The notes under the pieces are model-generated. The model ran no database searches and had not been told where the DNA came from. It was given only the letters and a program-made list of their open reading frames with translations. From contig NZ_JALJWR010000001.1 of the NCBI RefSeq assembly GCF_024169315.1, forward strand, positions 6,064,501-6,128,500: DNA of 64,000 nt, read 5' to 3'. A program made the translations under genes and the position numbers. Below are positions 37,357 to 55,553 of the stretch, piece after piece; positions within the stretch are counted from its first letter, which is position 1; every line of letters begins with the position of its first letter. The DNA comes from Pseudomonas migulae. Its GTDB lineage: Bacteria > Pseudomonadota > Gammaproteobacteria > Pseudomonadales > Pseudomonadaceae.

Positions 37357-37365
37357 CGTTTGATT

Positions 37366-37407: not shown

Positions 37408-37418
37408 ATTGTCGGTCT

Positions 37419-38651
37419 CTATTGCCCGCTTTGCGTCCAGCGCCCCATCAACGTATTGGACGGCAGTTGTTCATCCAACAGCTTTCTCGCCGTTTCCACT
37501 CCCGCCACCGGCAGCCCTTCAGGGTTTAACAAACCAATCTGCACCAGCACGCTGGCCTGGTCCCAGTAGATATGCTCGTGGTACAGCTTGTCCCCCCGGA
37601 ACTTGATCACCCCCAGCATCGGAATCTCGACGTACTGACCGGTCGGTGCGACGTTGGGCAGCATCCAGTCGATTTCAGTGCTGTGGGTGAAACACATGAT
37701 GAATTCATCCACGATCTGCAGTGCGCCGATGGTGCGGGAAATAGGGATGAGCTTCATGTCCGGCGGGTTGCCGTGGACAAAATGGTGTTGATAGAAGCGG
37801 CTGAGTTCCCTGGCGCCGACGCCGCCGGTCATGGTCGGGATATGGTTGACATAGGGTTCGGCGACCATGGTCGCCATGGTGGCGGGCACGTCACGGGTCT
37901 CGAATTCGTGGCGAATATGTTCTTCCCACAGGGCCGACAGGTTGAAGTGGGGACCGATCTCGCGCTTGAGCGCGGCAATGCTGCGTTCATGGGCCATCAG
38001 CGAGGCTGGCTTGTCGTAGTGTGAGCTCCCGGCCCGGGCGAAGGCATGGTCGACGCCGGGGTACACGTAGATTTCAGCTTTGTCGTTGCCGGCCAGGTGC
38101 TGGTTGATCCGGTCACGGGCATTGGCGTCGCAGTAGCCATCGTTCTCGGCAAAATGCAGTACCAGCCGGCCCGTGAGGTTTTCCGATTCGTGCAGCAGGT
38201 GTTCGATACCCATGCCGTAGTAGCCGACCGAACAGGCCACATCGGTGCGCGCGGCGGTTAGCCAGGCCAGTTTGCCGCCCATGCAGAAGCCGACATAACC
38301 CAGGCCCGAACCTTCGACTTCAGGCAGGGCACGCAGGGCTTTGAAGCTGGCGTCGATATCGGTGATTGCCTTGTCCACGTCCAGGCGCTGAAACAGGTCG
38401 ATGGCAACGGCAAAATCCGCTTCGGTGTAGCCCAGGTCCACGCCCGGTTGCAGGCGCCAGAACAGGTCCGGCACCAGTGCCACGTAGCCCTCTTCGGCAT
38501 AGAAATCGGCCACCGCGCGCATATTGGCGTTGACCCCGAAAATCTCCTGGCCGATCACCACCCCGGGGCCCTTACCGCTGGCCGGCAGGGCCAGGTAACC
38601 GCTGAACGTGGCGTTGTTGTCCGTTGCCCGGATCTCAATCATCTTGCCCAT
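37419..38651 (-). CDS. Dienelactone hydrolase fused to a SnoaL-like domain
   Basis: A 410-residue two-domain protein. Residues about 1-245 are a dienelactone hydrolase: GVVIGQEIFGVN, nucleophilic Cys in GYVGFCMGGKLA, Asp in HFAENDGYCDA and His in VDHAFAR, so the Cys-Asp-His triad is present. Residues about 255-400 are an NTF2/SnoaL-like fold (FETRDVPATMATM; HHFVHGNPPD; DEFIMCFTHSTEIDWMLP; PMLGVIKFRGDKLYHEHIYWDQ). SnoaL domains catalyse ring or lactone chemistry or serve as pockets. It is the last gene of the downstream sub-operon, 28 bp after the SDR gene. A lactone or ester intermediate is the probable substrate class. Confidence 0.85.
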   Translation of the reverse strand: MGKMIEIRATDNNATFSGYLALPASGKGPGVVIGQEIFGVNANMRAVADFYAEEGYVALVPDLFWRLQPGVDLGYTEADFAVAIDLFQRLDVDKAITDIDASFKALRALPEVEGSGLGYVGFCMGGKLAWLTAARTDVACSVGYYGMGIEHLLHESENLTGRLVLHFAENDGYCDANARDRINQHLAGNDKAEIYVYPGVDHAFARAGSSHYDKPASLMAHERSIAALKREIGPHFNLSALWEEHIRHEFETRDVPATMATMVAEPYVNHIPTMTGGVGARELSRFYQHHFVHGNPPDMKLIPISRTIGALQIVDEFIMCFTHSTEIDWMLPNVAPTGQYVEIPMLGVIKFRGDKLYHEHIYWDQASVLVQIGLLNPEGLPVAGVETARKLLDEQLPSNTLMGRWTQSGQ

Positions 38652-38679
38652 GTTGTCTACCTCATTCGGTTATCAGGTT

Positions 38680-39468
38680 TTATTGGCTGTCACGGTGTTG
38701 TTGAAACCACACTCGCGGCGACACGCCACGGTCTGGCCCCAGGATCGAAAAACCGCCGTCTACCGGTACGTCGACACCGGTCATCCAGCCTGCACCGGCG
38801 CTGCATAGAAAAGCCACCACGCTTGCTACCTCATGGCCCCGTCCAATACGCCCGAGCGGGTGAAAGGGGGCTCCAACCCGATCGGCCAGCTGCGGATCGT
38901 TGCCGCTGAGGTCGGCGACGCTGGGCGACCAGGTCCAGGCCGGGGATACGCTCAGCACCCGGACTTGCTCCGGGGCCAGGGTCATGGCCAGGTTTTTCGT
39001 CAGTTGCAGGATGCCGGCCTTGGAGGCGGGGTAGAGTGCACGCCCGGCGGCGCCGAATTTGCCACCGGTACTGCCAATGTTAATCACCACGCCGCCACTG
39101 GGCAGATGCACGGCGGCCTTCTGGGTAAAGATTGCCGCTGACACCAGATTGACGTTCAGGGTTTTCAGCCACTGTGCGCGGTCAGAAGCCAGTCCCTGAT
39201 CGGCGTACAGGCAAGCGTTGTTGACCAGGATGTCGAGCCTGCCGAAGCGGGCCAGCGTGGCCGTGATGCATGCGTCGATATCTTCGTCGCGCTCCACGTC
39301 GCAGGCTGAAAACCCGCAACCCATTGCTTGCGCCAATGCCTGACCGCTGTCGGCATTACGCCCCACCAGCATCACTCGAGCCCCCTCGGCCAACAGCTGC
39401 CGAGCGATGTCCAGACCCAGTCCCTGAGTACTGCCGGTCACAATCGCCACTTTGCCTTCGAGCATCAT
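38680..39468 (-). CDS. Short-chain dehydrogenase/reductase
   Basis: A 262-residue SDR of the classical type. NAD(P) motif TGSTQGLGLDIA (TGxxxGxG, about residues 11-22), NNACLY (NAG-like), catalytic YPASK with the Ser about a dozen residues ahead in IGSTGGKFGAAGRALYPASK, and the C-terminal GVDVPVDGGFS. ATG 39468 (MMLEGKVAIVTG) is chosen. It overlaps the end of the isochorismatase-fold gene by 4 bp. In such a cluster it could oxidise a cis-diol or alcohol formed by the adjacent dioxygenase. Confidence 0.88.
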   Translation of the reverse strand: MMLEGKVAIVTGSTQGLGLDIARQLLAEGARVMLVGRNADSGQALAQAMGCGFSACDVERDEDIDACITATLARFGRLDILVNNACLYADQGLASDRAQWLKTLNVNLVSAAIFTQKAAVHLPSGGVVINIGSTGGKFGAAGRALYPASKAGILQLTKNLAMTLAPEQVRVLSVSPAWTWSPSVADLSGNDPQLADRVGAPFHPLGRIGRGHEVASVVAFLCSAGAGWMTGVDVPVDGGFSILGPDRGVSPRVWFQQHRDSQ

Positions 39469-40061
39469 CGCAAGACCTCCAGGGCTTCCTTGACGTGGCT
39501 GATACGGGCGATCAGCGCCATGCTCGCCAGCGAGGCCGCATGTGTGCCGCTGTCCGCGCTGGCGCAGGCATCTGCCGCCACCGTCACTTCGAATCCGCAA
39601 TCCACCGCATGGCGCACTGTGCTCTCCACCACCGAGTGGGTCGCCACGCCAGCGATCAACAGGTGCGAAGGATTGAGCTGGCGCACCAAAGTTTCCAGCG
39701 GTGAACCATAAAAAGCATTGATCCGGTTGTGGGTGACGACGAACTCATGGCGGCTGTCCAGAGGCGCCAGCGCGCTGAAAAACTCCGCTCCCCAACTGCC
39801 TTCCCGGGCAGCACCAAGGGTGGCGACAGTGCGCAGAATCGGCGCGTTCTGGATCAGGTCGGCATAGTCCGGTCGGAACGCTACGCGCACGTGAACGATC
39901 GGCCAGCCCTTGGCGCGTGCGCCGGCCAGTAATCTGCCGGCGGCGTCGAGCAGTGGAGCACGCAGGCTGTCATCAGATCCCAGCCCGACCCTGATCTTGC
40001 CGTCGGGGTGCAACACGTCATTCTGATAGTGCAGGGCGATCACCACCGGCGCGTTCATCAC
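39465..40061 (-). CDS. Isochorismatase-fold protein lacking the catalytic triad
   Basis: A 198-residue cysteine-hydrolase-family protein. The fold is recognisable from ALHYQNDVLHP, HVRVAFRPDYADL, EFVVTHNRINAFYGSPLETLV and LLIAGVATHSVVESTVRHAVDCGFEVTV. Against the family pattern, the Asp (DxQND) is His, the Lys (VVxK) is His, and the Cys (TxxCVEST) is Val, so all three classical residues are replaced. PhzD-like members also lack Cys but keep Asp and Lys. It may have a different chemistry or be a binding or subunit protein. It overlaps both neighbours by 4 bp. Confidence 0.82.
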   Translation of the reverse strand: MMNAPVVIALHYQNDVLHPDGKIRVGLGSDDSLRAPLLDAAGRLLAGARAKGWPIVHVRVAFRPDYADLIQNAPILRTVATLGAAREGSWGAEFFSALAPLDSRHEFVVTHNRINAFYGSPLETLVRQLNPSHLLIAGVATHSVVESTVRHAVDCGFEVTVAADACASADSGTHAASLASMALIARISHVKEALEVLR

Positions 40062-40591
40062 ACGAATACCTCAAGGTTGGCGAACACATCGTTGCAGTTG
40101 ATGAGGTCCACGCGCTTGAGCTGGATCTGCCAGCCACCATCGTCCTGAGCGGCCAGTTTATAGATGTAGCGACCAGCCAGCTGGCGTTGTTCCAGGCGCC
40201 ACTCGCTGTACTGGAAGCTGGCGCTGACCACCAGCAGACCCTGGGCGTCGAGACCCTCGACCATCACATTGCCGACCATGTGCGCGGTCTGGGTCTGCGG
40301 TTGCTGGGACCAGTTGCGGGCGTTTTCCACCCGCCGGATCCGCACCTCACGCAGCATGCGGTTTTCCCAGAACAGCGAGATATGATCGAACGGGTTGGCT
40401 TGCTCGTGCTTGTGCGGCACCCAGTACATGCCGGTGTCGGTGAACAGCTTGTCCCACTCCCAGAAACGCCGCTCATCCAGCAGGCGCGCCTCCTGATAAA
40501 GAAACTGTTCGATCTGGCGCAGGGTCTCGACGGGAACCTGGGCGGGAGTCAACTGGCGGGTGTCGACGTCGACTCGGCGGTCAAGCAGCAT
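40058..40591 (-). CDS. Aromatic-ring-hydroxylating dioxygenase, beta subunit (second system)
   Basis: A 177-residue beta subunit of a Rieske non-haem oxygenase (NTF2-like fold). Typical segments: QIEQFLYQEARLLDERRFWEWDKLFTDTGMYWVP, FDHISLFWENRMLREVRIRRVENARNWSQQPQTQTAHMVGN, and IQLKRVDLINCNDVFANLEVFV. Its start overlaps the alpha-subunit end by 11 bp and its end overlaps the isochorismatase-like start by 4 bp. It is only distantly similar to AntB in the same window, so it belongs to a distinct oxygenase. Confidence 0.92.
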   Translation of the reverse strand: MLLDRRVDVDTRQLTPAQVPVETLRQIEQFLYQEARLLDERRFWEWDKLFTDTGMYWVPHKHEQANPFDHISLFWENRMLREVRIRRVENARNWSQQPQTQTAHMVGNVMVEGLDAQGLLVVSASFQYSEWRLEQRQLAGRYIYKLAAQDDGGWQIQLKRVDLINCNDVFANLEVFV

Positions 40592-41912
40592 GGGTGCTCT
40601 CCTTGGCGATCAGGGTGGCGGTCATGAACTGTTTCCAGGCGGCGAACTGGTTGCGCATCGGCAGTTCGCTGGTGCCGTTGGTGGACACCGCGCCGTCTTC
40701 CAACGGCTTATCGGTACCGACGTAGCGGTGCATGCTGATCCACTCGCCACCGCGGGTCATGTTGCCTTCCTGGCAGCGGGCATAGACTTCGACGTCGTCA
40801 GGCATCACGTTGGAGGAGGGCGAGTTGATGACGTTGGCGTAGGTCAGCGCGCGGTCGAACACGGCATCCGGCGCGCCTTTGCAGCGGAAGGTCTGGATCT
40901 CGACCATGGTCTGGTCCACGGCGATCGGGCGGATCACCCGGAACTGCATGAACACGGTGTGCGGCGAACCGCTGCCGTAGATCACCGTGTTGTGGCGGTT
41001 CATGCCGAGAATTTCCTTGGCGCGCTGGTCGCCGTAGGCCTGGCTCAGGCATTCGAAGTGAGCGCGTGAAACTTCATCGCGCTCGGCGGCGCTCGGGTCG
41101 AAGATCGCTTCCATGTAGCCGTGGCCGTTGTGGTAGGCGCGCAGTTCGAGTTTTTCCCAGAAGTCGTAGGGTTCGCCATTGCCGTCCATGATCAGCAGTT
41201 CGAAGGGCATTTCACCGATGGCCTGGGCTTCGTCACGCGCTGCGTCTACCGATGATTCGTGGGTCACACGGGCGTGCATGGTGTCGTGCAGGTTCTCGTA
41301 GAACACTTTCCAGTTTGAGCGTTGCTGAACTCGGAAGATACCGCCGGCCACCTCGACTTCGCCGACCGGTGAACGGTCGCAGAGGTTGTCGATGGAGGTG
41401 ATGACGCCACCCAGAAACGCTTTCAGGTCCGGTCCGAACGCCGCCTGGCTGGCGAATACGAAGCCGCGATAGGTCTCGACGCGGGCAAGGCTGACCATGG
41501 AGAAATCCGGGTGTTTGGGGTCGTAGCAGGTGCCTTCGAAACCGCTCTTGAGCGGTGCCGACAAATGCTGGCCGTCGAGTTTGAAGGTCCAGGCGTGATA
41601 CGGGCAGCGGAAGAATTTGCCGACACTGCCGTCACCGTCGGCCACCAGTTTGGCGCCCTTGTGCGGGCAGCGGTTGTACAGCACGCTGACCTGCTGGTTG
41701 GCGCCGCGCACCATGATCACGTCCTGATCACCGATACGCGTGGTGTGGTAGTCGCCGGGGTTCTTGACCTGGCTTTCATGGCCGACGTAGATCCAGGCGT
41801 TGCCGTAGATGCGCTCCATCTCCAGCTTGAACAGGGTCGGGTCGGTGTAGACGCTCTTGTGGACGCTGTCCTCACGGATCAAGGCTGCAATTTGCTCGTT
41901 GGTCGGTATCAC
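40581..41912 (-). CDS. Aromatic-ring-hydroxylating dioxygenase, alpha subunit (second system)
   Basis: A 443-residue Rieske alpha subunit. The [2Fe-2S] motif is CPHKG...FRCPYHAWTF (Cys-His and Cys-His). The mononuclear iron site NLHDTMHARVTH has the bridging Asp and two His. The start is GTG 41912 (MIPTNEQIAALI) with GAGGA 6 bp upstream; ORF extension beyond is unlikely. It pairs with the beta subunit and with the reductase just upstream. It resembles alpha subunits of indole-acetate or benzoate/phthalate-type oxygenases, but I cannot name the substrate. Confidence 0.93.
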   Translation of the reverse strand: MIPTNEQIAALIREDSVHKSVYTDPTLFKLEMERIYGNAWIYVGHESQVKNPGDYHTTRIGDQDVIMVRGANQQVSVLYNRCPHKGAKLVADGDGSVGKFFRCPYHAWTFKLDGQHLSAPLKSGFEGTCYDPKHPDFSMVSLARVETYRGFVFASQAAFGPDLKAFLGGVITSIDNLCDRSPVGEVEVAGGIFRVQQRSNWKVFYENLHDTMHARVTHESSVDAARDEAQAIGEMPFELLIMDGNGEPYDFWEKLELRAYHNGHGYMEAIFDPSAAERDEVSRAHFECLSQAYGDQRAKEILGMNRHNTVIYGSGSPHTVFMQFRVIRPIAVDQTMVEIQTFRCKGAPDAVFDRALTYANVINSPSSNVMPDDVEVYARCQEGNMTRGGEWISMHRYVGTDKPLEDGAVSTNGTSELPMRNQFAAWKQFMTATLIAKESTHAA

Positions 41913-41929
41913 GGGATGTCCTCGGTTTG

Positions 41930-42880
41930 TCACAGATCGAGCACCAGCAGCGCGCTGCGGGCACGGGAGACACAAGTGCAAAAACTGCCGCTGGCGCGGT
42001 CACGGTCTGACAGACAGATGTCGCGGTGATCGGGCTGACCGTCGATGACCTGGGCGACGCACACGCCGCAGTCACCCCGTCGGCAGTCGAACATCGGGTC
42101 CAGGCCGGCCTGGAGCATGGCGTCCAGCACGCTTTGCCCGGCGGCCACTTGCAGGCTCACGCCGCGTTCGCGCAGGTGCACTTCAAAGCCTTGATCGCCG
42201 GCCATTTCCAGGGCGCCGCTGAACAGTTCGTAATGCAGGTGATCTTCTGCCCAACCCTGTTCGCGAGCGCAGGCCAGCACGCTGTTGAGCAGGGCGGTCG
42301 GGCCGCAGATATAGAGGTGCAGGCCGGGTCTTGGCGCGGTCAGGATTGCAGCAGCAGGAAGGCGCTTTTGCGGGTCGCCGCCGCTGATCCAGCAATGGTT
42401 GTCCTGGCAGGCGCGGGCCTCTGGCAGATAGGCCATCTGTGCTTCATCGCGACCGGCGTAGTGCAGGGTGAAGGGCTTGCCCGCTGCTCGCAGCGACCGG
42501 GCCATGCCAAGCATGGGCGTGATGCCGATGCCGCCGGCGATCAGCAGTGCATGTTCGGTGTGCTCATGCAGTGGAAAGTGGTTGCGTGGCGATTCGGCCA
42601 GCAGTTCATCGCCGACCTTGAGCGAGTGCACCCAACGCGATCCACCTGTACTCGACACTTCGAGCTGGACGGCGATTTCGTAGTGCTCGCCGTCGGGCAG
42701 GTTGACCAGTGAATAGGCCCGGCGTTGAGTGCGATTGCCGGGTACGTGCAACTCAAGGTGCGCCCCGGCGGTGAAACCCGGCAGTGGCCGGGCGTCGCTG
42801 GATACCAGCAGGACGCGGCGGATTCTGGGGGTCAATAGCTCGATGTGTTCGACCCTGAGCGAGAGGCTGGACATACGCAA
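41930..42880 (-). CDS. Vanillate demethylase-type oxygenase reductase (flavin + [2Fe-2S])
   Basis: A 316-residue reductase with the FNR modules first and the plant-type ferredoxin last: RRAYSLVN flavin site, AGGIGITPMLGMA nucleotide motif, YICGPTALL, and C-terminal [2Fe-2S] ligands in CRRGDCGVC plus a Cys in FCTC. This FNR-ferredoxin order is that of phthalate dioxygenase reductase/VanB, opposite to the AntC-type order at 48500. It supplies electrons to the second dioxygenase; starts 42880 and 42874 are both possible. Confidence 0.92.
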   Translation of the reverse strand: MRMSSLSLRVEHIELLTPRIRRVLLVSSDARPLPGFTAGAHLELHVPGNRTQRRAYSLVNLPDGEHYEIAVQLEVSSTGGSRWVHSLKVGDELLAESPRNHFPLHEHTEHALLIAGGIGITPMLGMARSLRAAGKPFTLHYAGRDEAQMAYLPEARACQDNHCWISGGDPQKRLPAAAILTAPRPGLHLYICGPTALLNSVLACAREQGWAEDHLHYELFSGALEMAGDQGFEVHLRERGVSLQVAAGQSVLDAMLQAGLDPMFDCRRGDCGVCVAQVIDGQPDHRDICLSDRDRASGSFCTCVSRARSALLVLDL

Positions 42881-42973
42881 TTCCTGTCTGAATTCGTAGC
42901 CACTGTATGAAGCTTGAGGAGGGCAAAAAAGCCGTTAAAGGCAAACCGGTATCCACTTCTGGCGAGAGTGAAT

Positions 42974-42997
42974 TGCAGGAGCGAGCGCGCTCCTGCA
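42974..42997. repeat. Intergenic hairpin between the hydrolase and reductase genes
   Basis: TGCAGGAGCG (42974-42983) and CGCTCCTGCA (42988-42997) form a perfect 10-bp stem with a 4-base loop. The minus-strand 3' side lacks a T-run. It lies exactly between two sub-operons and may be an mRNA processing or stabilising site. Confidence 0.55.
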
Positions 42998-43003
42998 GGC
43001 AGG

Positions 43004-43798
43004 CTAACGCTTGAGGTGCACAAGCAGGGCCCGCAGGTGTTCGCCATCCGCCTGGGCCAGATCGTCCAACACAGCGAAGTGATGACACCCTGCAAGTTCG
43101 ACCAGGCTCACGGTCTGCCCGGCTTCGCGACAGGCACTGGCGTACTCGCGCGAATGTCGAATCAACTCCGGCAACTCATTCGCGCCCACGGTCACCAGCA
43201 ATGGTGCGCCATCGCCGATCAACCTTTGCGGGCTAAAGCGTTGGATATCTTCTTGGCTCAGTTGCAGCTTGTCGTTCAACCAGGTGCGGCTGATGGGTTC
43301 AAGCTCCATCAGGCCGCTGATCGGCAGGGCAAGGGTCACTAGCGGATGTCGGCGATGCAGCGCGGTCAGATGGCCTCCCGCCGAGTGCCCGCAAAGCACC
43401 ACCTGTCGACCGATGTTCAAGGCTTCACGGTGCGCCATCAGGTGGTCCAGTGCGTTGCCGATCTGTCCGACGATGGTGCCCATGCTCGCCTCGGGCGCCA
43501 GGGTGTACTCGAGCAGTCCGACGTTGAAGCCTGCCTCGATCAGCCCTTCGGCAATGAAGGCGTAGTCGTCCTTGTCCGAGGCCTGCCAGTAACCGCCATG
43601 AATGAACAGCAGCGTCGGCGCCCCGGCATCCGCGTGGGCATACCAGTCGAAACGCTCGCGCATGCCATTGCCATAGGACATGCCACGCTGCCAGGCGTGG
43701 CTTGCATAGGTCTCGGCGCTGCGCTGGCGAAAACGCTGCATGATCTGTGGAAAATCACCCACCGCTGCGACGTTGTTGTAAGCCTGATCGAGGTCCAT
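43004..43798 (-). CDS. Alpha/beta hydrolase, kynurenine formamidase-like
   Basis: A 264-residue alpha/beta hydrolase. The oxyanion motif HGGYW (LLFIHGGYWQASDKD), nucleophile elbow GHSAGGHL, Asp region near VTVGANELPELI and His in GCHHFAVLDD are visible. HGGYW with GHSAGG is the pattern of arylformamidase/esterase relatives that act on N-formylkynurenine-like amides. In an operon feeding anthranilate dioxygenase, it might release anthranilate or an aryl amine from an N-formyl or ester conjugate; this is inferred. It is the last gene of the transporter sub-operon. Confidence 0.85.
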   Translation of the reverse strand: MDLDQAYNNVAAVGDFPQIMQRFRQRSAETYASHAWQRGMSYGNGMRERFDWYAHADAGAPTLLFIHGGYWQASDKDDYAFIAEGLIEAGFNVGLLEYTLAPEASMGTIVGQIGNALDHLMAHREALNIGRQVVLCGHSAGGHLTALHRRHPLVTLALPISGLMELEPISRTWLNDKLQLSQEDIQRFSPQRLIGDGAPLLVTVGANELPELIRHSREYASACREAGQTVSLVELAGCHHFAVLDDLAQADGEHLRALLVHLKR

Positions 43799-43804
43799 GG
43801 CTGC

Positions 43805-44491
43805 TCACACTCCCAGATAGCGTTGCGAAAGTTCGGGTTGAGCCGCTAGCTCCACAGGCGTGCCATCCCAGACCTGCCGTCCTTTCTCAATGATGTGATG
43901 ACGGTCGACTACCCGTGCCATTTCCTTGAGATTCTTGTCGATCACCAGAATCGTCTCACCCTCGGCCTTGAGGGTGGCCAGGCAACGCCAGATCTGCTCG
44001 CGGATGATGGGTGCCAGGCCTTCAGTGGCTTCGTCGAGAATCAACAGGCTGGGGTTGGTCAGAAGCGCGCGGCCCACCACCAGCATCTGCTGCTCGCCAC
44101 CGGACAGTGTGCGAGACAGCTGGTCCTGTCGTTCCAGCAAGCGAGGGAACAGTTCATAGACTCGTGCCAGGTCCCACTTGCCCCGCGTGGCGGTGGCCAG
44201 CAGATTTTCCCGCACACTCAAAGTGCCGAAGGCGCGGCGGCCCTCGGGCACCAGTCCCAGACCGGCCTTGGCGATGCGATAGGGCGCAGCACCACGCATT
44301 TCCGTGCCGTTGATGCGGATGCTGCCGGCGCTGGGCTTGAGCAACCCCATGATCGATTTGACCGTGGTGGTCTTGCCCATGCCGTTACGGCCGATCAATG
44401 ACACCACCTGGCCCTGCTCGATGCTCAGGTGCATGTCGAACAACACCTGGCTCAAGCCATAGCCCGCTTTCAAGCCTTGAACTTCAAGCAT
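43805..44491 (-). CDS. Branched-chain-type ABC transporter ATPase, LivF family
   Basis: A 228-residue ABC ATPase (MLEVQGLKAGYGLSQVLFDMHL). Walker A GRNGMGKTT, signature LSGGEQQMLVVGRAL and Walker B LLILDEATEGLAP, then DKNLKEM where the switch His would be. The LivF-type switch is usually VEQN; here VIDKNLKE lacks that pattern, as often seen in aromatic-uptake LivF. ATG 44491; it overlaps the LivG-type gene by 8 bp. Confidence 0.93.
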   Translation of the reverse strand: MLEVQGLKAGYGLSQVLFDMHLSIEQGQVVSLIGRNGMGKTTTVKSIMGLLKPSAGSIRINGTEMRGAAPYRIAKAGLGLVPEGRRAFGTLSVRENLLATATRGKWDLARVYELFPRLLERQDQLSRTLSGGEQQMLVVGRALLTNPSLLILDEATEGLAPIIREQIWRCLATLKAEGETILVIDKNLKEMARVVDRHHIIEKGRQVWDGTPVELAAQPELSQRYLGV

Positions 44492-46246: not shown

Positions 46247-46256
46247 AGCGTTCTCC

Positions 46257-47168: not shown

Positions 47169-47183
47169 GACTGCGTTCCTCAC

Positions 47184-47213
47184 GAAAACGCCCCGCAGCG
47201 GTGCTGCAGGGCG
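47184..47213 (-). terminator. Attenuator-like hairpin between the binding-protein and permease genes
   Basis: CGCCCTGCAG...CTGCGGGGCG read on the minus strand (arms 47213-47204 and 47198-47189, one mismatch), followed by TTTTC. Its place downstream of the binding-protein gene fits partial termination that lowers expression of the permeases relative to the binding protein. Confidence 0.55.
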
Positions 47214-47234
47214 AGGACAGGGCTCAGGTGCCGG

Positions 47235-48395
47235 TCAGATCGAGCATTGAGCGGCGTAGCTGTCGACGTGGCGGGTCGCCAGAGTCTTGATCGGCACTTC
47301 GATCAGCTTGCCGTCGGCGCCGGCCTGCACTTGCAGCAGGTACCAGTCGATCACCGGGTGCTGGTTCTGGGCGAAGCTGAAGTCACCGCGAATGGAGTCG
47401 AACTTGACGTTCTTCATGGCCGAGCGGAAGGCCGCCTGGTCTTTCAGATTGCCCTGGGAGGTTTTCAGGGCGGCGCCGATCAGTCGTGCCGTGTCGTAGG
47501 TCTGGGCGGCATACACCGTCGGGGCGCGCTTGTACTTCTCGGTGAAGGCTTTGACGAAGGCCTGGTTGGCCGGATTGTCCGATTGCGGGTTCCACAGGGT
47601 GACGATGTTGGTGCCCTTGGCCACATCGCCGGTGGCGGCGAGCATGCGTTCATCCATGGAGAACACCGGCACCACCATCGGGATTTGCGCCGACAAGCCC
47701 GAGCCGCCGTACTGCTTGGCGAAATTGATGCCGCCGCCGCCCGGGTGAAATTGGAAGATCGCATCCGGCGCCAGCGAACGCACGCGCGCCAGTTCCACCG
47801 AGAAGTCCAGTTGGTTGAGCTTGGTGTAGATCTCGGTCACTTCGCCCTTGAAAGTACGCTTGAAACCGGCCAGTGCGTCACGGCCGCCCTGATAGTTGGG
47901 CGCCAGAATCACCATCTTCTTGTAGCCCAGTTCGTTGGCGGCGACCCCGGCCATCTCGTGCGGGGTGTCGTTCTGGTAGGAGGCGACGAAGTAGTTGGCC
48001 ATGCACTTTTCACCGGCCAGGGTCGAGGGCGCGGTGTTGTTACTCACGTAGAAACCGTCCTTGGTGGCGGTGTTGATCACGGCCGCCAGCACGTTGGAAA
48101 AAATCACCCCGGTGTACAGCGAGATACCATCCAGGCTCATGCGATCGGCAATCTGCTTGGCCTTGGCCGGTTGCAGTCCATCATCTTCCACAATGAGTTG
48201 CACCGGCACACCGCCGAGCTTGCCGCCTTCCTGATCGATCGCCAGCTGGAAGCCGTCTCGAGAGTCTTCGCCCAGATAGCCGGCGGGGGTGGAAAGGGTA
48301 GTGATGAAGCCGATTCGGACAGGCTCCACGGCCTGGGCAGCCGTCGCTGCGCAGAGGGAGGTTGCCAGACATGCACGCAATACCAGGTTTTTCAT
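47235..48395 (-). CDS. Branched-chain-type ABC transporter substrate-binding protein
   Basis: A 386-residue periplasmic protein with signal peptide MKNLVLRACLATSLCAATAAQA. The body is a type I binding fold: RIGFITTLSTPAGYLGEDSRDGFQLAIDQEGGKLGG, YVSNNTAPSTLAGEKC, KKMVILAPNYQGGRDALAGFKR. Liv/aromatic-type homologues bind amino acids or aromatic carboxylates. In this operon the ligand is probably the compound degraded by the adjacent dioxygenases. ATG 48395 is chosen; longer frames lack a signal sequence. Confidence 0.92.
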   Translation of the reverse strand: MKNLVLRACLATSLCAATAAQAVEPVRIGFITTLSTPAGYLGEDSRDGFQLAIDQEGGKLGGVPVQLIVEDDGLQPAKAKQIADRMSLDGISLYTGVIFSNVLAAVINTATKDGFYVSNNTAPSTLAGEKCMANYFVASYQNDTPHEMAGVAANELGYKKMVILAPNYQGGRDALAGFKRTFKGEVTEIYTKLNQLDFSVELARVRSLAPDAIFQFHPGGGGINFAKQYGGSGLSAQIPMVVPVFSMDERMLAATGDVAKGTNIVTLWNPQSDNPANQAFVKAFTEKYKRAPTVYAAQTYDTARLIGAALKTSQGNLKDQAAFRSAMKNVKFDSIRGDFSFAQNQHPVIDWYLLQVQAGADGKLIEVPIKTLATRHVDSYAAQCSI

Positions 48396-48499
48396 GAGGC
48401 GGCCTATGAAGTAGGTCGTGCCAACGCACGGTGGATATCGATGAGGGCAGTGATTCAGTGTTCGGTCGGGCCGATTGATTGTTGTTATGGGATGCTGCG

Positions 48500-49522
48500 T
48501 CAGCTGTTGCTTTCGGTGAATTTCTCCAGATAGAGGCGGCTTTGGTCCAGGCCGTGCTGCTGGCGCCAGTCCTTGATCGACTCGACCATCGGCGGCGGGC
48601 CGCACAGGTACAGGTCGAACGGCTGGTCGCGCAGTTCGGCCAACTCCAGGTGTTCGGCGATATAGCCGGTCTTGCCCGGCCAGTCGGGGTTGGGATTGCT
48701 GACCACAGGCGTGAAACGGAACCCGGGGATGCGTGCGGCATAGGCCTCGATGCGCGAGACCTCGCACAGGTCCGCGGCCTCGCGCACGCCGTAGTACAGG
48801 TGCACCGGATGGCCGCAGCCGTGCTGGTCGGCAATCTGGTCGAGCATGCCCAGAAACGCCGACAGCCCGGTGCCACCGGCCACCATCACCAGCGGGCGAT
48901 CGATGTGGCGCAAATAGAAAGCACCCAGCGGTGCTTCCATGTGGATCACGTCACCGACCTGGCAACGATCGCGCACGTAATCGGTCATCACGCCGCTGGG
49001 CAGCAAGCGAATGAGAAACTGCAAGTTGCTGGTGCCCGGCGCGCAGGCAAAGGAATACGAGCGCCGATGCTCGGTGCCCGGTACTTGCAGGCGAGCGTAC
49101 TGGCCCGGCAGGTAGTCGAGCGCCGCGCCCGCCGCACCGACTTCCACATGCACGATGGCGGTGGTCGGGGAGACCTGTCGTACTTCGCTCACGGTGCCTT
49201 GCAGACTGCTCGGGCCGCTGCTGCCGCAGAGACTGGAATCGAAGTCGAAGTAGAAGGCGGCGTCCGACTGCACGCGCGTCTGGCAGGTCAGTATCTTGCG
49301 CTCGGCCAAGTCACTGGCCGACAGTGCTTCATCGTCCACATAGTCCTGAGTGTACTGCCCTGATTCGCAGCGGCCCTGGCAGGTCGCGCAAACCCCTTCG
49401 CGGCAATCCAACGGAATCTTGATCCCGCTGCGCAGGGCCGCGTCGAGCAGGATTTCATTGTTCTGCACGTTGCAGAAGAGCGTTTTGCCGTCGGCGAAAC
49501 TGAAGGCGACCTTGTACGTCAT
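48500..49522 (-). CDS. antC: Anthranilate 1,2-dioxygenase electron transfer component
   Basis: A 340-residue reductase with an N-terminal plant-type ferredoxin (CREGVCATCQGRC, then Cys in ILTCQTR), followed by FAD-binding (RSYSFACAPG) and NAD-binding (VAGGTGLSAFLGMLD, YLCGPPPMVE) modules. The ferredoxin-FNR order is that of BenC/AntC. It delivers electrons from NADH to AntAB. Gene order antA-antB-antC matches other pseudomonads. A 104-bp gap separates it from the transporter genes, which may have their own promoter. Confidence 0.93.
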   Translation of the reverse strand: MTYKVAFSFADGKTLFCNVQNNEILLDAALRSGIKIPLDCREGVCATCQGRCESGQYTQDYVDDEALSASDLAERKILTCQTRVQSDAAFYFDFDSSLCGSSGPSSLQGTVSEVRQVSPTTAIVHVEVGAAGAALDYLPGQYARLQVPGTEHRRSYSFACAPGTSNLQFLIRLLPSGVMTDYVRDRCQVGDVIHMEAPLGAFYLRHIDRPLVMVAGGTGLSAFLGMLDQIADQHGCGHPVHLYYGVREAADLCEVSRIEAYAARIPGFRFTPVVSNPNPDWPGKTGYIAEHLELAELRDQPFDLYLCGPPPMVESIKDWRQQHGLDQSRLYLEKFTESNS

Positions 49523-49541
49523 GAGCGTTAATCCGCAGGGT

Positions 49542-50039
49542 TCAGAGATGGTAGAAATCGAGCACGGAGTTGATCGTGTCGTTAAGCAGCACTACGTGTT
49601 TACGGGCGATTTTCCAGCTCTCGCCGTCGGGGCGCAGACGGTAGGTGGCGCGGCCGAAGAACTGCTCGGCGGTCTGCATGCGGTAGTACAGGGTGCTCCA
49701 GTTGACGTGCACTTCCAGCTCATCGTCCTGTAGCGGCGCAATGCGCACGTTGCTGATCAAGTGCAGGGTGCGCGGCATCGGGATGGTCGACGCCGCTTTG
49801 CCGGTGCGAATGCGGAACACCCGGTCTTCCAGGCCGCCGCGGTTGGGGTAGTAGATAAGTGACATGCCTTTTTTCGGGTCGGTGGTGTAGACGTGCTCCG
49901 AATCCCATTGCGGCAGGTGGAATTCGCTGTCATCGCTGAACATGGCCAGGTAGGTGTCCCAGTCCTGGGCATCGCAGGCCTCGGCGTTGCGGTAGAGAAA
50001 TTGCTCGACGCGGTATTGCAGTTGCGAATTCATGTTCAC
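49542..50039 (-). CDS. antB: Anthranilate 1,2-dioxygenase small (beta) subunit
   Basis: A 165-residue Rieske oxygenase beta subunit: YRVEQFLYRNAEACDAQDWDTYLAMFSDDSEFHLPQWDSE, SLIYYPNRGGLEDRVFRIRTGKAASTIPMPRTLHLISNVRI, and a terminal VLLNDTINSVLDFYHL. The PMPRTLH segment is a benzoate/anthranilate-type beta-subunit feature. It overlaps antA by 4 bp. Confidence 0.93.
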   Translation of the reverse strand: MNMNSQLQYRVEQFLYRNAEACDAQDWDTYLAMFSDDSEFHLPQWDSEHVYTTDPKKGMSLIYYPNRGGLEDRVFRIRTGKAASTIPMPRTLHLISNVRIAPLQDDELEVHVNWSTLYYRMQTAEQFFGRATYRLRPDGESWKIARKHVVLLNDTINSVLDFYHL

Positions 50040-51439
50040 ACCTCACGCAGTTTCAACGGTTGTTGTTCGGCCGCCTTGCGCGCCAGGCCTTCCAGCAAAA
50101 AGCGCTGCCAGTTGGTGTGCTGGTTGACGTACAGGCCTTCATGGGTGAACTCGGTGCCGGTCAGTGCCGGGGCGATGCCAATCGTTTCGCTGTTGCGGGT
50201 GGCGCCTTCGACCCACTTGCCCTGTCCGCGGGAAATGTCGCTCCAGCGTTCCAGGCGCGCCTGGAAGCCACGTTGGGCTTCACGGAACTCCACGAGGTCA
50301 TCGGGGGTGCCCATGCCGGACACGTTGAAGAAGTCTTCGAACTGACGAATGCGGTTTTCCCGATCGGCGTCCGACTCGCCGACCACGCCCAGGCAGAAGC
50401 TGTTGATCTCGGTCTTGTTCCAGGCCAACGGGCGGATGATGCGCAGCTGCGAGCTGATCTGGTCGAGGAAGAACATGCTCGGATAGACGTTCAGATTGCG
50501 CAGGCGATGCATCATCCATTCGGCTTTGCCCTGGCCATGTTCCTTGACCAGACGCGGCATGATGGTGGCGTAGCCCGGGCGCACGGCAGGGTTGGGCATG
50601 TCGCTGAACAGAAGGCTGTGGCCGTTGTGGAAAGCGAACCAGCCGTCGTCGGTTTCCTTGTCGCCGGCACCCAGCTTGCTGTAGTCCAGGGTGTCGCTGG
50701 AACTCAGGCCTTTCTCGGCGTTGACCTGTTGGCGGTGTTGCACGGTGGCCACGTAGTTGTAGTGGACGGTGCTGACGTGGTAACCGTCAAGGCCGTTCTC
50801 GTTCTGCAGTTTCCAGTTGCCGTCGTAGGTGTAAGCCGACTTGCCCGGCAGCACTTCGAGCTGACCGGTAGGTGACTGCGCCACCATCATGTCGAAGAAC
50901 ACCTTGGCGTCACCGAGGAAGTCTTCCAGGGTGTCGGTGCCCTCCACGTCGAGGCTGACGAACACGAAGCCGTTATAGCTCTCGATACGGGCCTTCTTCA
51001 GGCCGCGGGTAGCCTTGTCGAAGCCTTCGGGGTATTCGCCAGGCGCTTTTACCTTTACCAGCCGGCCGTCGCTTTTGTAGCACCAGGCGTGGAAGGGACA
51101 AGTAAAGGTCGACTGGTTGCCCTTGCCAACGCGGGTAAGGGTGGTTCCACGGTGCTGGCAGGCGTTGATCAGGGCATTGAGATGACCTTCACCGTCGCGG
51201 GTGATGATCAGCGGCTGGCGGCCGGCACGCAGGGTCATGAAGTCGTGATTGTTGGCGATCTCGCTTTCGTGGCAGGCGTAAATCCAGTTCTTCTCGAAAA
51301 TCAGTTCCATTTCCAGATCGAACAATTCCGGGTCGGTAAACATATCGCGAGCGATGCGATAAACACCGTCTTCCGGACGGAAGTCCAGGCAACTTTCTAT
51401 ATAGCTTTTCCACTGTTCGATACTTCGTGCAGTTGTCAT
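50036..51439 (-). CDS. antA: Anthranilate 1,2-dioxygenase large (alpha) subunit
   Basis: A 467-residue alpha subunit that, with AntB and AntC, converts anthranilate to catechol with release of CO2 and ammonia. The Rieske site is CQHRG...FTCPFHAWCY; the iron site is NGLDGYHVSTVH. ATG 51439 (MTTARSIEQW) has GAGGA 7 bp upstream; an in-frame ATG further out would add six residues. First gene of the minus-strand island. The call as anthranilate rather than benzoate oxygenase rests on overall family resemblance and the paired AntR-like regulator. Confidence 0.93.
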   Translation of the reverse strand: MTTARSIEQWKSYIESCLDFRPEDGVYRIARDMFTDPELFDLEMELIFEKNWIYACHESEIANNHDFMTLRAGRQPLIITRDGEGHLNALINACQHRGTTLTRVGKGNQSTFTCPFHAWCYKSDGRLVKVKAPGEYPEGFDKATRGLKKARIESYNGFVFVSLDVEGTDTLEDFLGDAKVFFDMMVAQSPTGQLEVLPGKSAYTYDGNWKLQNENGLDGYHVSTVHYNYVATVQHRQQVNAEKGLSSSDTLDYSKLGAGDKETDDGWFAFHNGHSLLFSDMPNPAVRPGYATIMPRLVKEHGQGKAEWMMHRLRNLNVYPSMFFLDQISSQLRIIRPLAWNKTEINSFCLGVVGESDADRENRIRQFEDFFNVSGMGTPDDLVEFREAQRGFQARLERWSDISRGQGKWVEGATRNSETIGIAPALTGTEFTHEGLYVNQHTNWQRFLLEGLARKAAEQQPLKLREV

Positions 51440-51798
51440 ATCCCAGTCCTCGGCCAATGGGCTAATTCACGCCTTCATTAAATGACGTGGCGATGGACAG
51501 GGTCTATCCGCTTATTAGTGGAAACCCATCCGGAAAATAAGCCTTGATCTTGGGTTGCTGGTGATTAAGTCCCGTAAACAATGGGTTTTGTCGCATATGA
51601 AGGCTGAGCAAACGGCTAATTTTCTTCCAGTAACGGGATAGCCGCTGAGTAACTTGTTGCGGCTTAATTTCAATCGAAGCACCACCAGAGTGTCTCACTG
51701 CAGGTCACTGGAAACTGCCATTGCTCATGGCCCTGGTTTTCACCAGAAGTGCCTTCTATTCATGTGTTGCTCTAAACGCGGCAGGGGGAAGAAATAAT
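51440..51798. promoter_or_regulatory. Divergent control region antA / porin gene
   Basis: A 359-bp gap between divergent starts. Two TCACTG hexamers 10 bp apart, one helical turn (51695-51700 and 51705-51710), lie about 90 bp before the porin ATG and resemble AraC-type half-sites. The rest is AT-richer than flanking genes, fitting promoters. AGGGGGAA precedes the porin ATG. Confidence 0.5.
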
Positions 51799-53049
51799 AT
51801 GTTGCATAAAACGTGGTTAGTTCGAGGGATTCAAACAGTTGGCTTGTTGACGCCAATACTGGCACAGGCCGACGTGGTCTCTGACAGCCGGCTGACACTG
51901 GGTACCCGCAACTTTTACATCGATCGGGATTTCAAGCAGGACAACCCACCCCATTCGCGGGTGGGCAGTTGGACTCAGGGTTTCGACTTGCGTTTCGCCT
52001 CCGGCTATACCGAAGGCCCGGTGCAGTTCGGCCTGGATGCAGAGGTGCAGTATGCCTACAGGCTGGACGGCGGTGGCGGGCGCGGCGATGACTCCATCAT
52101 CCCTTATAGCCGAAGCCGTCAGGAGCAGGCCGATGAATATGGCCGTGGCGGGGCAACGCTGAAAATGCGCTATTCGAAAACCGAGCTGAAAGTCGGTGAA
52201 CTGCGGCCGTTACTGCCGGTGGTGATCATTGACGATTCACGTCAGTTGGTTACGACCTATCGCGGTGGCTTGCTCGAATCCAAGGAAATCGACGGCCTGA
52301 CATTGACCGCCGGGCGGCTGACGCAGATCGGTGCGCGTAACTCCTCCAACTACGAAAAACTGTACCTGCAGACCGGCTCGGGTGTGCGCCACGGCAGTGA
52401 CGGGCTCAACCTCGCCGGTGCCAGCTATGCCTTCACTCCGTCGCTGACGGGTACTTACTTCTACGCGCAACTGGAAGACATCTACCAGCAGCACTACCTG
52501 GGCATCACTCATCTGGCAGACCTGGGCGACGGCTATGCGCTGAAGACCGACCTGCGTTATTTCAACAACAGCGAAGACGGCGACGCTCTCTACGGCGACA
52601 TTGACAACCGTTCCTATGGCGCCATGACCTCCCTGAAAAAAGGCGGGCACCGCTTCGGCGTGGGGTACCAGCGCATGCTCGGTGACAGCAACTTCCCGAC
52701 ACTGGGCGGTTATGTGCCGCAGCCGTTCCTGGTGAACTGGTCGCGGGTGGCGTTCATCAAACCCAACGAAAAATCCTGGCAACTGCGTTATGACTACGAC
52801 TTTGCCGCCATGGGTCTGCCGGGTCTGAGCTTCATGACCCGATATTTGAAGGGCAGTTCGGTGGACCGTGGCGACAACCTCAGCCAGGCAGCGGAGCAGG
52901 AGCGCAATCTGGTGCTGTCCTACGTGGTGCAAAGCGGTCCGCTCAAAGGCGTGGGCGTGGAGGCCGGCAACGTCGTTGCCAAATTCAGCCACGGCAATGA
53001 CTGGGTGGAAAACCGCCTGATCACCACTTACACCTGGAAATTTTGGTAA
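51799..53049 (+). CDS. OprD-family outer-membrane porin
   Basis: A 416-residue porin with a signal peptide (MLHKTWLVRGIQTVGLLTPILAQA). The mature start DVVSDSRLTLGTRNFYIDRDFKQDN is the OprD family's conserved N-terminal block, and the chain ends with a terminal aromatic strand (TYTWKFW). About 18 strands are expected; OprD-family substrates are amino acids and aromatic acids (for example BenF, OpdK). Divergent from antABC; probably the outer-membrane route for the compound degraded here. A hairpin at 53091-53118 follows. Confidence 0.92.
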   Translation: MLHKTWLVRGIQTVGLLTPILAQADVVSDSRLTLGTRNFYIDRDFKQDNPPHSRVGSWTQGFDLRFASGYTEGPVQFGLDAEVQYAYRLDGGGGRGDDSIIPYSRSRQEQADEYGRGGATLKMRYSKTELKVGELRPLLPVVIIDDSRQLVTTYRGGLLESKEIDGLTLTAGRLTQIGARNSSNYEKLYLQTGSGVRHGSDGLNLAGASYAFTPSLTGTYFYAQLEDIYQQHYLGITHLADLGDGYALKTDLRYFNNSEDGDALYGDIDNRSYGAMTSLKKGGHRFGVGYQRMLGDSNFPTLGGYVPQPFLVNWSRVAFIKPNEKSWQLRYDYDFAAMGLPGLSFMTRYLKGSSVDRGDNLSQAAEQERNLVLSYVVQSGPLKGVGVEAGNVVAKFSHGNDWVENRLITTYTWKFW

Positions 53050-53090
53050 CGTCCTGCCCTCAAATCGGACGCAGTTGTGCGCTGAAGTGA

Positions 53091-53118
53091 CGCCTTGGGT
53101 AGCGGATTACCCAAGGCG
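53091..53118. repeat. Hairpin downstream of the porin gene
   Basis: CGCCTTGGGTA (53091-53101) and TACCCAAGGCG (53108-53118), 11-bp perfect stem, 6-base loop. No T-run follows on either strand, so termination is doubtful. Confidence 0.6.
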
Positions 53119-53308
53119 CTGACCATGACCGGCACCGTTGCTGTGCGCATCAACGCCGCACAGCGCGTTCGATATCCTGATAGTTTCTGATTACTAGCCA
53201 AAAAATGCGGATATCGCCTGTTCGCACCAGCTGGGCATAGCCCTTGCAAACGTAATGAGAATACGCGCCGAAGAGCGTGTCGATGTCCATTGCCGTGGGT
53301 GTACTGAG

Positions 53309-54322
53309 ATGACCGAACCAAATGTTGCCCAGTTTCGAGATATCCGCATAGATCGCTACGACCTGGCCGGTGCCCGGGCGTGGATGGCCGGAATTTGCGG
53401 GCCGCACGAACTGCAGACTTCGCAGCCGAACCGGATTCAGTTTCACCACAAGGCCAATGTCTTCAAATCCATGTCCACGACTTTGGGCCGGATGGAATAC
53501 GGCACTGACGTGACCATTGGCGTCGAGGATGCCGAACACCTCAATTGTTACAGCCTCAGCCTGCCGATTCGCGGCGAGCAGGAGTTGGTCAAGGATGGCC
53601 GTCGGTTGTACTCCAATCAGGATCAGGGGCTGATTGTGACGCCGCACGAAACCCAGACACTGAGCATGGCCGGTGACTGTCACAAGATCTCCGTGGTGAT
53701 AACTCGCATGGCCATGCGCCAGACACTGGAAGGCATGCTGCAACGCCCGCTGGAAATGCCGCTGAAGTTCGAGCCGGTGATGGATGCGGTCAACGGCGCC
53801 TCTGCCTCTTGGTGGCGGTTGGCCCGTTACTACATCGATGAACTGGAACGCGGTCACGACCTGTTCAGTCAGGTGTTCTTCACCCGCGATATCGAAAGCG
53901 CGCTGATCAAGGGGCTCATCCTTTCCCAGCCCAACAACTACAGTGCCGAGCTTCGTGACCAACTGGGCGTCAAGTTGCCGTATTACCTGGTGCGCGCCAA
54001 GGACTTCATAGAAAGCAACGCTCGCGAAGACATCCACCTGGAAGACATCGAGGCGGCGGCAGGTGTGTCCCGCTTCAAACTGTTCGAAGGCTTTCGCAAG
54101 CACATGGGCGTCTCGCCCATGGCTTACCTGAAAAAGTTTCGCCTCGGCGCCGTACGTCAGGAAATCCTCGAAGACGCCTCGGTGCGCAACATCTCCGTGA
54201 TTGCGATGTGCTGGGGTTTTTCGCATCTGGGCCGGTTCGCCAGCGAGTATCGCAAGCTGTTCAACGAAACGCCCAGTGCCACTCTGCAGCGCAGCGAAGC
54301 CCGTCGCAATCGGTCGCTTTGA
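53309..54322 (+). CDS. antR: AraC-family activator, AntR-like
   Basis: A 337-residue regulator with an AraC_binding_2 type sensor domain (about 1-200: IEFHHKANVFKSMSTTLGRMEYG-like segment; HLNCYSLSLPIRGEQEL; GLIVTPHETQTLSM) and two C-terminal HTH motifs (HLEDIEAAAGVSRFKLFEGFRKHMGVSPMAYL; ISVIAMCWGFSHLGRFASEYRKLFNETP). ATG 53309 is chosen. Location beside antABC suggests it activates ant genes with anthranilate as inducer; the ligand is inferred. Confidence 0.82.
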   Translation: MTEPNVAQFRDIRIDRYDLAGARAWMAGICGPHELQTSQPNRIQFHHKANVFKSMSTTLGRMEYGTDVTIGVEDAEHLNCYSLSLPIRGEQELVKDGRRLYSNQDQGLIVTPHETQTLSMAGDCHKISVVITRMAMRQTLEGMLQRPLEMPLKFEPVMDAVNGASASWWRLARYYIDELERGHDLFSQVFFTRDIESALIKGLILSQPNNYSAELRDQLGVKLPYYLVRAKDFIESNAREDIHLEDIEAAAGVSRFKLFEGFRKHMGVSPMAYLKKFRLGAVRQEILEDASVRNISVIAMCWGFSHLGRFASEYRKLFNETPSATLQRSEARRNRSL

Positions 54323-54323
54323 C

Positions 54324-55319
54324 ATGGCGACTTTCCATGCGGCCACCGCCAACAGCGTGGGCCTGAACTTGTCGCTGATGTGCCGCGAGCCGGTCTTTAC
54401 CAGTCGCTCGGCGCAGGAAACCCAGCATTTGATGGGGCAAGCGCTGGTGGAACATGAGCTGGATTGGCCGCGGGGCGGTGTTGATACGGCGTTCTATCGC
54501 GGCCAGGTCGCCAGTTGCGAACTGTATGCGCTGCGTTACGGCGGTCAGGTAGAAATCCGGCCGCAGCCTTTCGAAGATTTCGTACTGGTACAGATGCCGC
54601 TGCGCGGCAGTGCCACGCTTGAGTCCGACGGCATGGGCTATGCCGTCAGCCCGGGAGAAGTGGCGATTCTGTCTCCGCGCAAGCAGGCTCGAGTGGTGTG
54701 GGAGGAGGGCTGCGAGCAACTGATCCTCAAACTGCCACGGGTATTACTCGACGCCAGCCAGAGTGCGCTGGCCGATGACTTGCCATCTGACTTCACGTTA
54801 GCGCCGGTCAGCCGTCTGGAACGGCCACTGGCGATGCGCTGGTTTCGTCTGGTCAGTGAGTTGCTGGAGCACTTGCCCGAGGGCGAGTCGAGTACACCGC
54901 CTTCACGCTGGTTACAGCATCTGGAGCAAAGCCTGCCGCTGTTTCTGCTCAGCCATTGTGGCGTTGCGCAACAAGCGTCGCCTTCGCCGCGGCAGCCCAC
55001 CCGTCAACTGCAAAAAATCGACACCTGCATGCGCGAGCACCTTGTTCAAGGCATCTCCCTGGCTGAACTGGCGGTTGCTGTCGGGATGAGTATTCGCAGC
55101 TTGAACACCTTATGCCAACGTGAATACGGTCAAAGCCCGATGGACCGCTTGCGCGGATTACGGCTTGAAGCCGCCAGGGAGTACTTGCTGGCGAGGCCGT
55201 ACACCAGCGTGACAGAGGTAGCGCTGGAGTTCGGGTTCGGGCATGTGGGGCGGTTTGCCAATTACTATCGGCAGCGGTTTGGAGAGTTGCCGAAGCAGAC
55301 GATGAAGTCTCAGGCATGA
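54324..55319 (+). CDS. Second AraC-family regulator
   Basis: A 331-residue AraC-type protein separate in sequence from the first: MATFHAATANSVGLNLSL..., a sensor domain of about 220 residues (FEDFVLVQMPLRGSATLES; PRKQARVVWEEGCEQLILKLPR) and the HTH pair (ISLAELAVAVGMSIRSLNTLCQREYGQSPMDRL; VTEVALEFGFGHVGRFANYYRQRFGELPKQ). It starts 1 bp after antR ends, so both form one operon. Two activators for one locus suggest that ant and the second dioxygenase unit respond to different inducers. Confidence 0.88.
   Translation: MATFHAATANSVGLNLSLMCREPVFTSRSAQETQHLMGQALVEHELDWPRGGVDTAFYRGQVASCELYALRYGGQVEIRPQPFEDFVLVQMPLRGSATLESDGMGYAVSPGEVAILSPRKQARVVWEEGCEQLILKLPRVLLDASQSALADDLPSDFTLAPVSRLERPLAMRWFRLVSELLEHLPEGESSTPPSRWLQHLEQSLPLFLLSHCGVAQQASPSPRQPTRQLQKIDTCMREHLVQGISLAELAVAVGMSIRSLNTLCQREYGQSPMDRLRGLRLEAAREYLLARPYTSVTEVALEFGFGHVGRFANYYRQRFGELPKQTMKSQA

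Positions 55320-55477: not shown

Positions 55478-55553
<76 letters not shown>

Follow-up and report, generated by a model that had tools for sequence, protein, structure and literature searches.

We analysed a gene cluster at positions 37419-55319 of a 64,000-nucleotide stretch of the Pseudomonas migulae genome (the window; positions 6,064,501 to 6,128,500 of contig NZ_JALJWR010000001.1), which was assembled as one 6.54-Mb contig. The cluster contains 18 genes. Fifteen lie on the minus strand, with the anthranilate dioxygenase gene antA (51439) at one end and a gene for a fused dienelactone hydrolase (DLH) and SnoaL-like protein (37419) at the other, while an OprD-type porin gene and two AraC-type regulator genes are divergent on the plus strand. 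All genes named in an annotation made previously from the sequence alone (the original prediction) were found where it had placed them, with a minus-strand count of 15 instead of about 14. Gaps between the minus-strand genes are mostly -11 to 28 bp, and the wider ones separate livH from the substrate-binding protein gene (66 bp), the latter from antC (98 bp), and the reductase gene red2 from a formamidase-like gene (129 bp).

Two Rieske oxygenase systems are encoded on the minus strand. The first is anthranilate dioxygenase, as had been predicted: antA (50036-51439, large subunit, 942.9 bits against 671.9), antB (49542-50033, small subunit, 279.4 against 213.5) and antC (48500-49522, reductase, 595 against 402) all score above the curated NCBIfam cut-offs. 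A catA gene was identified elsewhere in the genome (456.3 bits against a cut-off of 392). The second block consists of red2 (41930-42874), encoding a PDR/VanB-type reductase, genes for a Rieske oxygenase alpha subunit (alpha2, 40581-41906) and beta subunit (beta2, 40058-40591), an isochorismatase-fold protein (ICH, 39465-40058), a short-chain dehydrogenase (SDR, 38680-39471) with YPASK and TGSTQGLG motifs (NCBIfam PRK08265, 382.6 against 294 bits), and the DLH-SnoaL fusion (37419-38651).

Genes for a complete uptake route lie between and beside these two systems. On the minus strand, domain and NCBIfam searches identified LivF-type (43805-44491) and LivG-type (44484-45233) ATPases and LivM-type (45230-46246) and LivH-type (46257-47168) permeases, followed by a LIV-type substrate-binding protein (47235-48401) whose closest PDB sequences are 4evq and 4zpj. 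The OprD-family porin (Pfam OprD, 457.3 bits) is encoded at 51796-53049 on the plus strand. An 11-pair terminator-like hairpin at 47189-47213, between the binding protein gene and livH, could set the level of the binding protein above that of the permeases, in a scan whose overall yield was near shuffled expectation (21 versus 16.5).

The cluster is a discrete 18.1-kb unit, an island, located between an NCS2 permease gene and a tRNA-Asn gene (37382-55477, without strand; the left edge is approximate). In one relative (G011), the sequences matching window positions 32544-37357 and 55478-64000 are only about 0.19 kb apart, which represents an empty site, and both alpha2 (E 1e-60) and antA (E 1e-150) are missing from this genome. 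Left homology stops near 37381 and right homology restarts at 55478, the 3′ end of the tRNA-Asn(GTT) gene (55478-55553, minus strand; ARAGORN and Rfam). Three relatives were retrieved for this comparison, and the other two showed left-side homology only, with no right-flank homology within the stretch read. No integrase is present among the 18 island genes, the tRNA end occurs as a single copy within the window, and GC content across the span is unremarkable (0.56-0.63 per 2 kb). The same gene order recurs across many genomes, so the arrangement is not due to chance. Together with a copy of most of it on plasmid pCAR1, described below, the unit reads as mobile, linked to a tRNA gene in this strain and carried by a conjugative plasmid in the other.

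The original prediction had left the second dioxygenase unassigned, which is fair since alpha2, beta2 and red2 reach no NCBIfam cut-off. However, comparison with PDB sequences places all three subunits closest to an indole-3-acetate (IAA) oxygenase system. The best matches of alpha2 are IadD chains (9o71_A and 7yls_B, E about 2e-111), that of beta2 is the beta chain common to 7yls, 8h2t and 9o71 (7yls_A), and that of red2 is 7ylr, which we infer to be IadC. In the available excerpts of the respective papers, 9O71 is IadDE (PMC12633357), IadDE with IadC converts IAA to 2-oxindole-3-acetate and the pocket residues are listed (PMC10374108), and the chemistry is argued to be a monooxygenation via an epoxide (PMC12633357). 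This kinship fits an indolic precursor.

The substrate pocket differs from that of IadD. We aligned 106 rows, including 99 alpha2 rows (some of them repeats or near-identical strains) and six iad-type rows. IadD residues N210, H216 and H221 are kept in 99/99 alpha2 rows, and H311, R329 and Y362 in 98/99. In contrast, two residues of the IAA pocket, F251 and K322, are switched to N and H, respectively, in 98 of the 99, with the F251 column falling in a gapped stretch, whereas all six iad-type rows have F and K. Position 211 is Q in the six iad-type rows and L in 97/99 alpha2 rows, as in Variovorax IadD. In a 33-row tree, a split with starred support divides 25 alpha2 rows from six iad-type rows, under long-branch warnings. 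Judged from sequence comparison, alpha2 is a sister group of IadD with a pocket of its own.

A more distant homologue of alpha2 (36-38% identity) was observed in seven of 298 Pseudomonas genomes. In the three of these that were inspected (G049, G150 and G047; loci L101, L105 and L108), it has the iad-type pocket residues F and K and adjoins genes resembling those for tryptophan monooxygenase IaaM and indoleacetamide hydrolase IaaH, with a Trp/Tyr permease gene as well in L101. These loci look like a cluster leading from tryptophan to IAA and on to its oxidation.

The tie of the second block to anthranilate in Pseudomonas is strong. Among the same 298 genomes, with at most five candidate places scored per genome, alpha2 is present in 18 (19 copies, at least 87% identity) and antA in 93. 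All 18 genomes with alpha2 have antA, and antA lies 2.6 to 10.3 kb from alpha2 at each of the 19 copies (hypergeometric P for co-occurrence 2.3e-10, uncorrected for kinship). Three arrangements were found: that of the window; a pCAR1 type with the order block, araC2, araC1, oprD and antABC; and a poae type with the order araC1, antABC, red2 to DLH, and an aldehyde dehydrogenase gene. At five unique loci of the poae type, only about 70-130 bp, as measured between alignment ends, separate antC from the start of the block. Genome G131 carries two copies of alpha2, each with an antA of its own. Two copies of the block, one of the window type and one of the poae type (L009 and L020), were likewise found in Pseudomonas sp. 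Root562, and both have a separate antABC.

The second block also has a promoter element of its own. A tandem box upstream of red2, with the common form GCM-N6-GGMTA followed by TTGCC-N5-CGGC, was found in 28 of 34 Pseudomonas upstream regions, a set that includes two loci drawn twice. The box resembles XylS half-sites. In this genome the full pattern has a single exact match (42930-42963, minus strand), 55 bp from the start of red2, with no sites at one mismatch and eight at two. Looser matches are meaningless, because three mismatches gave 58 sites compared to 66 for a reversed control. The six regions without the box (L020, L022, L030, L032, L104, which repeats L022, and L107) are all of the poae type, and no araC2 was found at these loci. 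Because box and araC2 are absent together, we infer that the box is the site of AraC2 (54321-55319, plus strand), the proposed regulator of the red2 operon. The other regulator, AraC1 (53309-54322, plus strand), is an AntR ortholog, 75% identical to its counterpart in the antR transcription unit of pCAR1.

Plasmid pCAR1 of Pseudomonas resinovorans CA10 (NC_004444; typed as conjugative) carries a close counterpart of the island. Its ant region has the same reductase, alpha (89%), beta, ICH, SDR and DLH genes in that order, then two AraC genes, OprD, ISPre1, antABC, IS1384 and a binding protein gene. Unlike the island, it is interrupted by the two insertion sequences and has no formamidase-like gene beside the reductase gene, and the four liv genes were not within the stretch read. 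Growth on carbazole forms anthranilate. According to the accessible part of a tiling array study (PMC2642839), expression in KT2440 on carbazole rose from 86 to 4410 for antA-antC and from 54 to 1271 for antR. The only unit of the block listed there is ORF21, which corresponds to DLH (KT2440, 310 to 486; CA10, 513 to 1325), and no listed unit covers SDR to red2 on succinate or carbazole. The lack of a listed SDR-to-red2 transcript during carbazole growth makes simple co-induction less likely and favors an inducer of its own for the block.

The unit could accordingly hold two separate pathways, with a substrate of the second block unrelated to anthranilate. Along with the array result, its own promoter box and probably its own regulator fit such an arrangement, as does the fact that most loci outside Pseudomonas show no ant genes in their 10-kb flanks. 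However, antA within 10.3 kb of every Pseudomonas copy through three arrangements, a block directly after antC in the poae-type loci, and the separate antA of each copy in G131 make this explanation improbable. The original prediction had named independent expression with an unrelated substrate as the outcome that would overturn it; given the box and the array result, this concern is answered only in part.

We compared the gene content of 88 loci, comprising 80 of 534 relatives and eight others; two of them were drawn twice (L104 = L022 and L106 = L034), and some are truncated. Other homology searches in this analysis covered the best 120 matches. The clade was found in Pseudomonas, Achromobacter, Burkholderia, Variovorax, Bordetella, Azoarcus, Alcaligenes and other genera. 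Genes for beta2 (88), SDR (87) and ICH (86) are nearly always present, followed by araC2 (58, at a loose tblastn threshold that may include paralogues), the substrate-binding protein (56) and red2 (51), while livM was found in 22. DLH-SnoaL is present in 66 of the 88 loci and a CrtI/CrtO-like FAD oxidoreductase in 12, with both in none and neither in ten, which we read as alternative lower branches of the pathway. In some loci of other genera, alpha2 is accompanied by genes for IorA (five), IorB (four), a cyclase-family protein (five) or an iad-type oxygenase (two).

Several further genes were observed near the block. An aldehyde dehydrogenase gene is present in L020, L022, L030, L032 and L107, and also in L033, L042, L045 and L048; in the poae-type loci it directly follows DLH, hinting at an aldehyde as substrate or by-product. 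Adjacent to the block in L085 is a gene for a molybdopterin-binding (MoCoBD) protein, along with cyclase-family and FAD oxidoreductase genes. A 357-amino-acid gene product in the same locus was considered as a further molybdenum-hydroxylase subunit, but this was rejected as it scored as sulfonate-binding-protein-like, below cut-off. Similarly, the gene upstream of red2 in L103, a Trp/Tyr permease by Pfam, was reassigned as a serine/threonine transporter, the NCBIfam family for which it exceeds the cut-off.

ICH shares its fold and overall length with isochorismatase-fold amidohydrolases such as BiuH, TrtA and maleamate amidase, in which Asp, Lys and Cys are catalytic; for Cys, this role also appears in mutant names. 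In alignments with TrtA and BiuH, these three positions hold H10, H110 and V143, respectively. The two histidines are invariant in 86/86 neighbourhood rows (which contain repeats or near-identical strains) and 121/121 wider rows, and the valine is found in 81/86 and 118/121. H141 is kept in 84 of the 86, and position 109 is Lys in 27, which places a lysine directly beside the site in some members. In the predicted structure (mean predicted local distance difference test score, pLDDT, 89.2), residues 10 and 110 fall where strands end and residues 140-143 where a helix begins; a metal site here is speculation. The automatic name "cysteine hydrolase" is thus misleading for this protein, and a role as an amidase was rejected, as the alignment with TrtA shows no amidase triad.

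The fusion protein is best understood through its DLH domain (Pfam, 154.8 bits), in which C123, D171, H202, E36 and R206 are kept in 25/25 rows. The DLH half of the original label is therefore upheld, but the SnoaL half is weak by hidden Markov model (SnoaL_2, E 1.1e-4, 23.2 bits versus a cut-off of 27). The structural model falls below pLDDT 50 at residues 263-277 and 352-405, and Foldseek matches its N-terminal part to DLH structures, which is informative for the DLH domain only. Dienelactone hydrolase itself has Arg where the island protein has Ala at position 81, so the substrate is probably not dienelactone. The alpha/beta hydrolase encoded at 43004-43798 (minus strand) matches kynurenine formamidase 4e11 (E 6.8e-18) and contains an HGGYW motif, in agreement with its earlier arylformamidase-like label, although its best PDB match is 9n8r, named Lipase 1. 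We call this gene accessory because it is present in only ten of the 88 loci. In L015 and L102, which are of the window type, the search of the interval from livF to red2 yielded no formamidase-like gene.

As another candidate substrate, we considered a different nitrogen-containing aromatic from which anthranilate would arise, for example a 4-quinolone, a quinazolinone or an N-acylanthranilate. The linkage to antA by itself names no indole, formamidase-like and isochorismatase-fold genes are present, and one locus, L085, has a molybdenum-hydroxylase subunit near the block. However, the closest solved relatives of the oxygenase act on indole-3-acetate, IorAB or an iad-type oxygenase lies beside some copies, and ICH has no amidase triad. 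We regard such a substrate as unlikely.

Comparison with known pathways points to iad as the nearest relative. Like the island, the iad system of Variovorax paradoxus (IadCDE) has a two-component Rieske oxygenase, and it includes an SDR, a formamidase-like hydrolase and a solute-binding protein and yields anthranilate, as would the island, according to the portions available of PMC10374108, PMC12633357 and PMC9613470. Beyond iad, the island has ICH, DLH-SnoaL, OprD, AraC regulators and antABC. Conversely, none of its 18 genes encodes an IadF acyl-coenzyme A (CoA) ligase, an IadG thiolase, an IadH alcohol dehydrogenase or a MarR regulator, both regulators being AraC types. The IorB family (NF006179) was not found in the genome, and no IorA is encoded in the island, the search for IorA having been limited to the latter. 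Plain iad membership was therefore rejected on gene content, pocket and IorB, and iad is kept as a mechanistic model. The available text of PMC9613470 defines only two types of aerobic IAA locus, marked by iorB and iotA (iad) and by iacA, iacB and iacI (iac), with iad-like loci leading to anthranilate and iac-like loci to catechol; the island probably belongs to neither class, because no marker was recognized.

IAA itself could still be the substrate, if hydrolytic removal of the side chain replaced the CoA ligase and thiolase branch in a variant of iad. In addition to the kinship with IadCDE and the shared H311, R329 and Y362, a formamidase-like gene and a LIV importer also occur in iad, in the sections available of PMC12633357 and PMC10374108. 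We nonetheless consider IAA a doubtful candidate. The absence of both ligase and thiolase speaks against an iad-style breakdown of IAA, as does the replacement of F251 and K322, which the iad-type rows keep. In two loci (L074 and L080, from Schauerella and Achromobacter) the block is divergent beside an iad-type reductase, alpha and beta set with an AMP ligase, demonstrated in L074 and assigned by similarity in L080, which argues for a second substrate.

Other pathways were rejected as well. The iac locus of Pseudomonas putida 1290 shares Rieske alpha/beta, reductase and SDR genes in an indole-acid pathway, in the passages available of PMC9613470 and PMC7225977, but no acyl-CoA-dehydrogenase-like flavin oxygenase IacA is encoded among the island genes, to which this search was confined. 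In the iif/ind and WHOP ipo/dho systems, an indolic substrate is converted to anthranilate with an SDR, and antABC is often nearby in Pseudomonas; the first enzyme is a flavin oxygenase instead of a Rieske enzyme (available parts of PMC6221969 and PMC12538310), and the iif/ind assignment was rejected since no flavin-dependent IifC or IifD is present among the island genes, again the scope of the search. For the kynurenine pathway, kynureninase scored 19.5 bits versus a cut-off of 246.4 and the KynB family (PF04199) had no matches in the genome. The comparison with iad, kynurenine and iac loci proposed in the original prediction has thus returned an iad-related Rieske trio, and membership in none of the three. 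No function or substrate has been assigned to this cluster, including the pCAR1 copy, in the open-licence PMC literature searched.

Taken together, our preferred reading, held with moderate confidence, is a mobile island for the uptake of an indole-3-carboxyl-type compound, probably one other than IAA, and for its degradation via anthranilate to catechol. In this model, OprD and the LIV-type transporter would import the compound. By analogy with the action of IadCDE on IAA, alpha2/beta2 with red2 would then oxygenate the C2-C3 bond of the indole, and the SDR would oxidize the resulting hydroxyindoline to a 3-hydroxy-2-oxindole. Loss of the C3 substituent and of C2, along with opening of the lactam, may be the task of ICH and DLH-SnoaL, joined by the formamidase-like hydrolase in loci that have it, and would involve no CoA chemistry. 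Finally, AntABC would make catechol, which CatA would take on. Anthranilate may act through AntR to switch on antABC, and expression of the red2 operon may depend on AraC2. Of these, only the predicted AntABC step and the oxygenase family have curated or solved relatives behind them.

Several points weigh against this reading. Besides the array result for the pCAR1 block and the loci outside Pseudomonas that have no ant genes nearby, the column for F251 lies where the alignment is gapped, R329 is not diagnostic because AntA has it too, and the roles given to ICH and DLH-SnoaL are guesses. More tentatively, the block may represent a third aerobic indole-acid route beside iac and iad, in which a Rieske clade acts on a non-IAA indole acid, for example indole-3-carboxylate, without CoA chemistry, and in which ICH, with conserved histidines in place of an Asp-Lys-Cys triad, performs a new reaction, on a tRNA-linked island as well as on a conjugative plasmid.

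The original prediction, in which the extra genes feed the anthranilate route, was right in direction and is partly supported: the linkage to antA (19/19) and the kinship to an IAA oxygenase fit an indolic precursor, whereas kynurenine, iac and iif did not hold, and the substrate is still a proposal. The evidence allows a narrower formulation, namely a Rieske pathway related to iad but distinct from it, which is encoded on an island linked to a tRNA gene and would feed antABC. Roots and microbiomes are affected when bacteria remove indole hormones and defence compounds. The clade spans several genera and the well-studied plasmid pCAR1, yet the literature searched assigns it no substrate, and the tie to antABC makes the question of that substrate directly testable.

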